Of a stretch of DNA of 64,000 bases, positions 3,774 through 4,952 are shown in pieces. The stretch is taken from positions 1-64,000 of the forward strand of contig MWBZ01000002.1 in the NCBI GenBank assembly GCA_002069765.1, written 5' to 3'. Origin of the DNA: a bacterium ADurb.Bin243 (GTDB lineage Bacteria; Muiribacteriota; UBA9980). The notes under the pieces are model-generated. The model was not told the origin of the DNA and ran no database searches. It saw only the letters and a program-made list of their open reading frames with translations. The first letter of the stretch is position 1. Each line of letters opens with the position of its first letter. A program made the translations under genes and the position numbers.

Positions 3774-4493
3774 ATGTACCAGAGCTCTAAAACTTATGTT
3801 TTCAGCGTTGCGGCTTTACTGCTTATCGGCGGCGCTTTGATGCTCGCAAGCGTCGGATGCGGCAATTCCTATGGAACGCCTTACGGCTTTTCGAATTTAG
3901 TGCCTAACGACGCTTCGATCGTGGTGAAAATGATAAACACCAGTTCGATCGCCGGCGGCCTTCACAGCCCCAAATCAAACGCTCCCGGCCGCGCGAGCGG
4001 AACCACAATCACCGAAACTACTTCTACGACTAATAATACCACGGCTTCGGGCACTTTGATTAAAATAAGGCCTGACGACGTTTACGTAAGCATTTCCGAT
4101 ATGTCGATCTATTCCACCGACGGCAAGGAATACGTTCTTTTTACCGAGCCAAAGGAAATCAATTTGCTTAATTTAATTAAAGACGGCGAAGTAGTCGCAA
4201 TGGCTTCTGACGTTCCCGTAGGCGCATATAACCGCATGAAATTCAACATCAATTACATGAGGATATTAAACGAAGGCGAAAAGCAAAGAATCGCGCTCGA
4301 TCAGACCGTTTATCTTTCGACGAACGACGCCAATCTCACTCAGTTTTCTCTGGAATCGTCGAACCGCGCGAGCGTAAAATTGAATTTCGATATCAACGAT
4401 AAGGTGTTCAAAGATAGAAACGGCAATTATCAGGTTTTCCCGTCTCTGTTTTTGATATATGAAGGTTCGGAAGCAGTTCAGCGCTATAATTGA
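3774..4493 (+). CDS. Lipoprotein-like exported protein, DUF4382-like
   Basis: A 239-residue protein with an N-terminal hydrophobic segment ending LMLASVGCGN, compatible with lipid attachment at Cys29 although Ser at -3 is unusual for a lipobox. After a Ser/Thr-rich linker of about 40 residues, residues 100-230 look like DUF4382: DDVYVSISDMSIYS, EINLLNLIKDGE, then VPVGAYNRMKFNINYM. Such domains are found in surface lipoproteins of unknown function. GGAGG lies six bases before ATG. It is monocistronic, with a good terminator at 4537-4566. Export is well supported; the domain assignment is tentative. Confidence 0.75.
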   Translation: MYQSSKTYVFSVAALLLIGGALMLASVGCGNSYGTPYGFSNLVPNDASIVVKMINTSSIAGGLHSPKSNAPGRASGTTITETTSTTNNTTASGTLIKIRPDDVYVSISDMSIYSTDGKEYVLFTEPKEINLLNLIKDGEVVAMASDVPVGAYNRMKFNINYMRILNEGEKQRIALDQTVYLSTNDANLTQFSLESSNRASVKLNFDINDKVFKDRNGNYQVFPSLFLIYEGSEAVQRYN

Positions 4494-4536: not shown

Positions 4537-4566
4537 ACGCCCGGCTTTCTTCGCCGGCGTTTTTGT
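4537..4566 (+). terminator. Rho-independent terminator
   Basis: ACGCCCGGC / GCCGGCGT stem (one bulged C) with loop TTTCTTC, preceded by A-tract and followed by TTTTGTTTTT. It closes the lipoprotein gene and isolates the selenoprotein gene downstream. Confidence 0.85.
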
Positions 4567-4623: not shown

Positions 4624-4652
4624 TTGACAAAACGATTGAAATGTAGTAAAAT
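4624..4652 (+). promoter_or_regulatory. Consensus promoter for the candidate selenoprotein gene
   Basis: TTGACA at 4624-4629, exactly 17 bases, TAAAAT at 4647-4652. Predicted start near 4659, giving a leader of about 85 bases. Confidence 0.8.
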
Positions 4653-4708: not shown

Positions 4709-4737
4709 CGGCCGCCGCTATGCGGCCGGAAAGGCGG
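4709..4737 (+). promoter_or_regulatory. Leader hairpins overlapping the ribosome-binding site
   Basis: Two mutually exclusive stems can be drawn. CGGCCGC (4709-4715) pairs with GCGGCCG (4722-4728) and leaves the Shine-Dalgarno free. CCGCC (4712-4716) can instead pair with GGCGG (4733-4737), which is the Shine-Dalgarno itself. This could be a translational switch or chance in a G/C-rich patch; no known riboswitch class is recognised. Confidence 0.35.
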
Positions 4738-4743
4738 TGGAAT

Positions 4744-4905
4744 ATGAACTATAAAGTGCTTCTCGCCATGGCTGCCGGCGGCGCTATCGGCTATCTTATG
4801 AACGTTCTTTCCGTTCAGACCGGAGGCGGCTGAGCCATGACGTGCAATCCTTATATATCGGTCGTTTTCGGCGTTATATTCGGATTGATTATGGCCTTAG
4901 GCTAA
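4744..4905 (+). CDS. Probable selenoprotein, DUF6132 family (in-frame TGA = Sec30)
   Basis: Read with TGA 4831-4833 as selenocysteine this is a 53-residue membrane protein: a first helix (MNYKVLLAMAAGGAIGYLM), a polar loop VQTGGGUAMTCNPYIS, and a second helix (VVFGVIFGLIMALG). It aligns without gaps to the DUF6132 pattern as I remember it, GY-x8-C-x3-TC-x-IT-x2-P-x2-S-x2-YG; the TGA falls exactly on the second conserved Cys (SGTC). The first family Cys is Gln25 here and a new Cys34 gives a U-x3-C pair. A SECIS-like hairpin lies at 4853-4879. GGCGGTGG precedes the ATG. Read conventionally it would be two peptides of 29 and 22 residues, neither making sense alone. No Sec-insertion genes are in the window. 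Function of the family is unknown; the position suggests a redox loop. Confidence 0.75.
4853..4879 (+). promoter_or_regulatory. Candidate bacterial SECIS element
   Basis: Hairpin drawn by eye: five A-U pairs (4853-4857 with 4875-4879), U.U mismatch, C4859-G4873, bulged G4860, then G4861-C4872, U.G, C-G, and G4864-C4869 closing loop UUUU. If the last pair opens, the loop begins with GU, as bacterial SECIS loops require. The apex lies 31 bases after the TGA, inside the 16-37 base range described for bacterial SECIS elements. Confidence 0.6.
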
Positions 4906-4923: not shown

Positions 4924-4952
4924 TTGACTGGCGCCCTCGCTTGTGTTATAAT
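4924..4952 (+). promoter_or_regulatory. Consensus promoter abutting the ABC exporter start
   Basis: TTGACT 4924-4929, 17-base spacer, TATAAT 4947-4952. Only seven bases separate the -10 box from ATG 4960, so the transcript should start at or next to the start codon (leaderless). Confidence 0.85.

Follow-up and report, generated by a model that had tools for sequence, protein, structure and literature searches.

An in-frame TGA codon in a small gene of Candidatus Wallbacteria is almost certainly read as selenocysteine (Sec), and the gene is very probably a genuine selenoprotein gene in which Sec is inserted by SelB with the help of a hairpin. The gene lies in a 64,000-nucleotide stretch of DNA (the window) from the bacterium ADurb.Bin243, and its product aligns with the Cys-containing proteins of the uncharacterised family DUF6132 (PF19628). 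It represents a new selenoprotein family in a class that annotation misses twice, 53-residue membrane hairpins being too short and, in addition, interrupted by a stop codon, and it documents the use of Sec in an uncultivated lineage. Throughout, G000 denotes the window genome, and G001, G002 and G003 denote the remaining three sequenced species of the genus.

Gene and predicted protein

The frame consists of 54 codons, and its sole in-frame TGA is codon 30 (Table 1). The translation reads MNYKVLLAMAAGGAIGYLMNVLSVQTGGG-U-AMTCNPYISVVFGVIFGLIMALG*, a product of 53 residues. A preliminary description of this DNA had joined two short frames across one TGA into a 53-residue protein, and the presence of the same TGA in three further genomes of the genus bears this out. 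The AlphaFold2 model (pLDDT 75, pTM 0.49) placed residues 3-25 and 36-52 in two hydrophobic helices, joined by a loop that carries Sec30. We infer from this model that the two helices cross the membrane and that the loop holds Sec30 and Cys34, between which a selenenylsulfide could form. A Foldseek search against the PDB returned only matches with E above 5, which is uninformative for a two-helix query.

Table 1. Positions of the features at the selenoprotein locus (window coordinates) and of the SelD genes of the genus
Feature	Position	Strand	Basis or remark
DUF4382 putative lipoprotein gene, upstream neighbour	3774..4493	+	Pfam; neighbourhood comparison
Terminator-like hairpin after the DUF4382 gene	4541..4557	+	Sits between the DUF4382 and selenoprotein genes
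Sigma-70-type promoter TTGACA-17-TAAAAT	4624..4652	+	Consensus scan, 11/12 positions
Shine-Dalgarno-like AGGCGGTGG upstream of the ATG	4732..4740	+	Read from the sequence
Predicted 53-aa selenoprotein gene	4744..4905	+	Translation; same-TGA orthologs in four genomes; AlphaFold2 secondary structure
TGA codon assigned to Sec30	4831..4833	+	Invariant in 4/4 genus genomes; Cys in 7/7 phylum homologs and the Riemerella homolog
Predicted SECIS hairpin in the coding sequence, UGA at its base	4831..4899	+	RNAalifold; recoding test; pair counts
Cys34 TGC codon, candidate resolving thiol (U-x3-C)	4843..4845	+	Invariant in the four Sec forms (alignments)
SelD	G000:C39:14104-15030 (L049); G003:C100:8811-9737 (L048)		Downstream of a NifS-like cysteine desulfurase gene, same orientation

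Relation to the Cys proteins of DUF6132

The TGA column was occupied by Cys in all seven homologs from two other families of the phylum, and also in a Riemerella (Bacteroidota) protein annotated as DUF6132. When a profile of the Sec forms alone was aligned by hhalign with a profile of the Cys forms alone, the match was strong (probability 97%, E 8.7e-11), and the TGA residue fell on the second Cys of the family. The Cys forms carry a C-x4-C pair, with Ala or Ser at position +4 from the second Cys. This motif is absent from the Sec forms, which have Gln and then Sec: the first family Cys is Gln25 (U-5), and the partner thiol is located at U+4 as Cys34. The exchange at these two positions was complete, with four of four Sec forms set against eight of eight Cys forms. 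Both kinds of protein share the two-helix layout, a similar length, a G-x3-G in helix 1 and, after the aligned Cys or Sec, the pattern xxT..P..S...G. The relocated partner Cys suggests that the gain of Sec accompanied a rebuilt redox centre, and the presence of Sec at the motif position speaks strongly for chemical activity of this residue in DUF6132.

These alignments confirm, through homologs with Cys at position 30, the earlier claim that the TGA sits on a conserved family Cys; the replacement of the first Cys by Gln and the U-x3-C pair formed by Cys34, also proposed at that time, proved invariant among the Sec forms of all four species. The assignment to DUF6132 itself held only in part. 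Homology is supported by the profile match, whereas the Sec forms scored 14 bits (E 0.039) against PF19628, below the curated gathering cut-off of 23.2 bits, and a PF19628 search of the genome at E 0.001 gave no match. With E up to 1, ten of the 11 alignment members matched PF19628, the best at 5.8e-7. Since the Sec forms alone fall under the cut-off, the protein is best described as a distant Sec-bearing relative and not as a formal member of the family.

Possible role of the selenoprotein

In the mechanism we propose, SelB would bring Sec-tRNA to the UGA under the direction of the hairpin downstream of it, and the product would be a two-helix membrane protein whose short interhelical loop holds Sec30. 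Sec30 and Cys34 may act as a redox pair (a selenenylsulfide) at the membrane surface, which would take part in thiol or sulfane-sulfur exchange and be reduced by thioredoxin. The Cys relatives that are encoded beside thioredoxin would do likewise with their C-x4-C pair.

The genomic context of the Cys forms favours such a thioredoxin-driven thiol or sulfane-sulfur role, as a YgaP-like membrane gene was found directly upstream of the Cys form in all six genomes of family f5 of the phylum, and thioredoxin directly downstream in five of the six. An operon of this kind makes the chemical activity of the motif residue testable. Another family of the phylum has a YgaP-like membrane gene, a DUF6132 gene of the Cys type and thioredoxin compactly clustered in five genomes (loci L050-L054). 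Thioredoxin and YgaP-like genes also exist in Wallbacteria, away from the selenoprotein gene. Since the partner genes are not adjacent there, and the Riemerella gene has a metal-domain neighbour, the argument for a redox role draws solely on context in relatives, and we would give a thiol or chalcogen redox role, rather than metal binding, roughly even chances.

It is also possible, although we consider it rather unlikely, that the protein is a real selenoprotein whose Sec30 and Cys34 serve as ligands for soft metals (copper, mercury, silver), as in small mercury-transport proteins. Metal ligands would suit the following observations: in Riemerella, the DUF6132 gene comes immediately after a gene for a heavy-metal-associated domain, near a TonB receptor; the selenoprotein catalogue includes MerT and metal ATPases in Sec form (PMC13188914); and the DUF4382 neighbour of the selenoprotein gene has a weak MbnP match (E 9e-4, under the cut-off). 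In the six genomes of the phylum described above, however, the Cys forms adjoin the YgaP-like gene and, in five, thioredoxin, and no metal genes were seen adjacent to them.

Conservation on both sides of the TGA codon

The TGA was kept at the identical codon in all four species of the genus, with no indel, frameshift or further stop. The orthologs in the three other genomes were found by search with E values of 7e-26, 4e-21 and 3e-19 and shared 91, 77 and 70% protein identity with the window protein, and identity among the four Sec orthologs ranged from 68 to 91%. Nonsynonymous change was restrained in both halves of the gene, and the pN of 0.06-0.15 downstream of the TGA indicates protein-level selection on the second half. 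Per site, synonymous differences amounted to 0.45-0.78 before the TGA versus 0.06-0.55 after it; the pre-TGA range spans the values of the neighbouring DUF4382 gene (0.65-0.68 in three species pairs). The six species pairs are not independent of one another; in three of them the drop after the TGA reached significance (Fisher p 0.001-0.012). Lowered synonymous change at this place is as expected for an overlapping RNA element. The preliminary description was thus right that both halves are maintained: the downstream half is not decaying, and close relatives have TGA and no other sense codon at this position. The TGA/TGC exchange that it had proposed to look for was observed as TGA versus Cys between families of the phylum, but not inside the genus.

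The same comparison bears on whether the TGA is a true stop, in which case the locus would encode a 29-residue peptide, and the rest would be a second small ORF starting from the ATG two codons past the TGA, or a remnant. TGA does serve as an ordinary stop in 7 of the 38 long ORFs of the window, and three species have an ATG after the TGA. The downstream frame, however, stays open and conserved across the four species, and its match to the Cys homologs runs through the TGA; a true stop appears highly improbable. Re-initiation at this ATG was rejected, as G003 has ATA in place of the sole nearby ATG.

The hairpin following the TGA codon

The RNAalifold consensus of the four sequences has the UGA within the basal helix and, 30 nt past it, a 6-nt apical loop at about 4864-4869. 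The minimum free energy (MFE) of the hairpin was -14.0 to -20.1 kcal/mol for 60 nt in the four species, and dinucleotide shuffles gave z values of only -1.0 to -1.9. Against synonymous recoding that preserves the protein, the hairpin was more stable in each species (p = 0.039, 0.018, 0.005 and 0.049 singly; joint 0.007), while the control region of 75 nt ahead of the TGA was without signal (joint p 0.95). Pair counts showed that 94.8% of the cells in the hairpin were paired; no pair had a double-sided change among the four sequences, which are too conserved for covariation.

The bSECIS model asks for a spacing of 16-37 nt and an MFE of at most -7.5 kcal/mol (PMC13188914), and the 30 nt to the consensus loop as well as all four MFEs lie within these limits. 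The model also asks for a G in the first two loop positions; in the consensus register the 6-nt loop opens with G in three of the four species and with A in G001. A hairpin 31 bases downstream, with a loop starting with GU, had been described earlier; the hairpin stands, with its loop at 30 nt, but the loop-G rule fails in G001. Rfam gave no convincing match at the site.

Selenocysteine machinery

SelA, SelB and tRNA-Sec (anticodon TCA; UCA in the RNA) were each found in all four genomes of the genus. SelD was found in G000 and G003, both times with a TGA in the motif CAG-U-ASKLGPGD (the classical G-U-x-x-K site), and none was found in the fragmented and incomplete assemblies of G001 and G002. 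A Sec-bearing SelD serves as an internal positive control for Sec decoding in the genus. The four components for which a search had been recommended are all present in the window genome.

Some bacteria reassign TGA, and reading of the codon as another amino acid (Trp, Gly or a near-cognate) without selenium would also yield a full-length product, but this is extremely improbable, given that TGA terminates other genes of the window, that Cys occupies the TGA column in homologs, and that the genome has the full Sec machinery with SelD itself Sec-bearing.

A bolder view of the selenoprotein, which we hold to be speculative and unlikely, is that its two-helix subunits, in which the partner thiol has moved (U-x3-C in place of C-x4-C), form a Sec-dependent chalcogen or electron conduit in the membrane, linking cytoplasmic thioredoxin with the cell surface and carrying sulfane sulfur, selenium or electrons, and that this protein and SelD are among the chief reasons for the persistence of the Sec machinery in Wallbacteria. 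The latter part derives from the finding that neither Fdh-alpha (TIGR01591) nor Sec HesB-like proteins (TIGR01911) had a match in the four Wallbacteria genomes.

Comparison with known selenoproteins

DUF6132/PF19628 is missing from the 119 prokaryotic selenoprotein families or subfamilies given in a 2026 review (PMC13188914). No NCBIfam model (June 2026) matched the protein even at E 10. The literature search for DUF6132 found no work, its single text match being plant nucleotide-sugar transporters (EamA/DUF6), an apparent text artefact. Judged against the catalogue, NCBIfam and the literature, the family is new among selenoproteins, and its mode of working is like that of many known ones; the statement in the preliminary description that no Sec form of the family had been published agrees with these searches. 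Like the small selenoproteins in the review (KCU-star/DUF466 and the CC/Se motif family; PMC13188914), the protein is predicted from an in-frame UGA annotated as a stop, but those are other families. It resembles the Sec-containing MerT (PF02411) and YeeE/YedE (PF04143) in being a membrane selenoprotein (PMC13188914) and is set apart from them by Pfam family.

We also scanned 84,980 genomes with the TGA-motif pattern G-x-U-x-[I/M]-T-x-x-P-Y, which other TGA variants may escape, and obtained matches in three Wallbacteria genomes and one Telluribacter. The Telluribacter match was dismissed as chance, its frame being full of stops. The viral contigs scanned contained no relative.

Transcription and neighbouring elements

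The promoter scan found a mean of 1.2 sites in shuffles of the region, and the promoter at 4624-4652 probably belongs to the selenoprotein gene itself. Its 11/12 match, together with the terminator-like hairpin after the DUF4382 gene, suggests that the selenoprotein gene is its own transcription unit in the window genome. The DUF4382 gene is located directly upstream of the selenoprotein gene in G000, G002 and G003, and the DUF4382 loci are window 3774-4493, L057 7460-8176 and L059 9482-10192. The gap in G003 is about 13 bases, and the two genes are probably co-transcribed there. The orthologs have purine-rich stretches at the Shine-Dalgarno position.

A GC-rich inverted repeat, GGCCGC-cgctat-GCGGCC, was observed at 4710-4727 of the window, in the 5' leader just ahead of the ribosome site. 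A similar, non-identical repeat was present in G001, and none was present in G002 or G003; the repeat may possibly be a leader control element, or due to chance. A promoter-like element, TTGACT-17-TATAAT with a TG extension, was observed at 4924-4952 of the window; it begins 19 bases past the stop codon of the selenoprotein gene and stands ahead of an ABC transporter pair.
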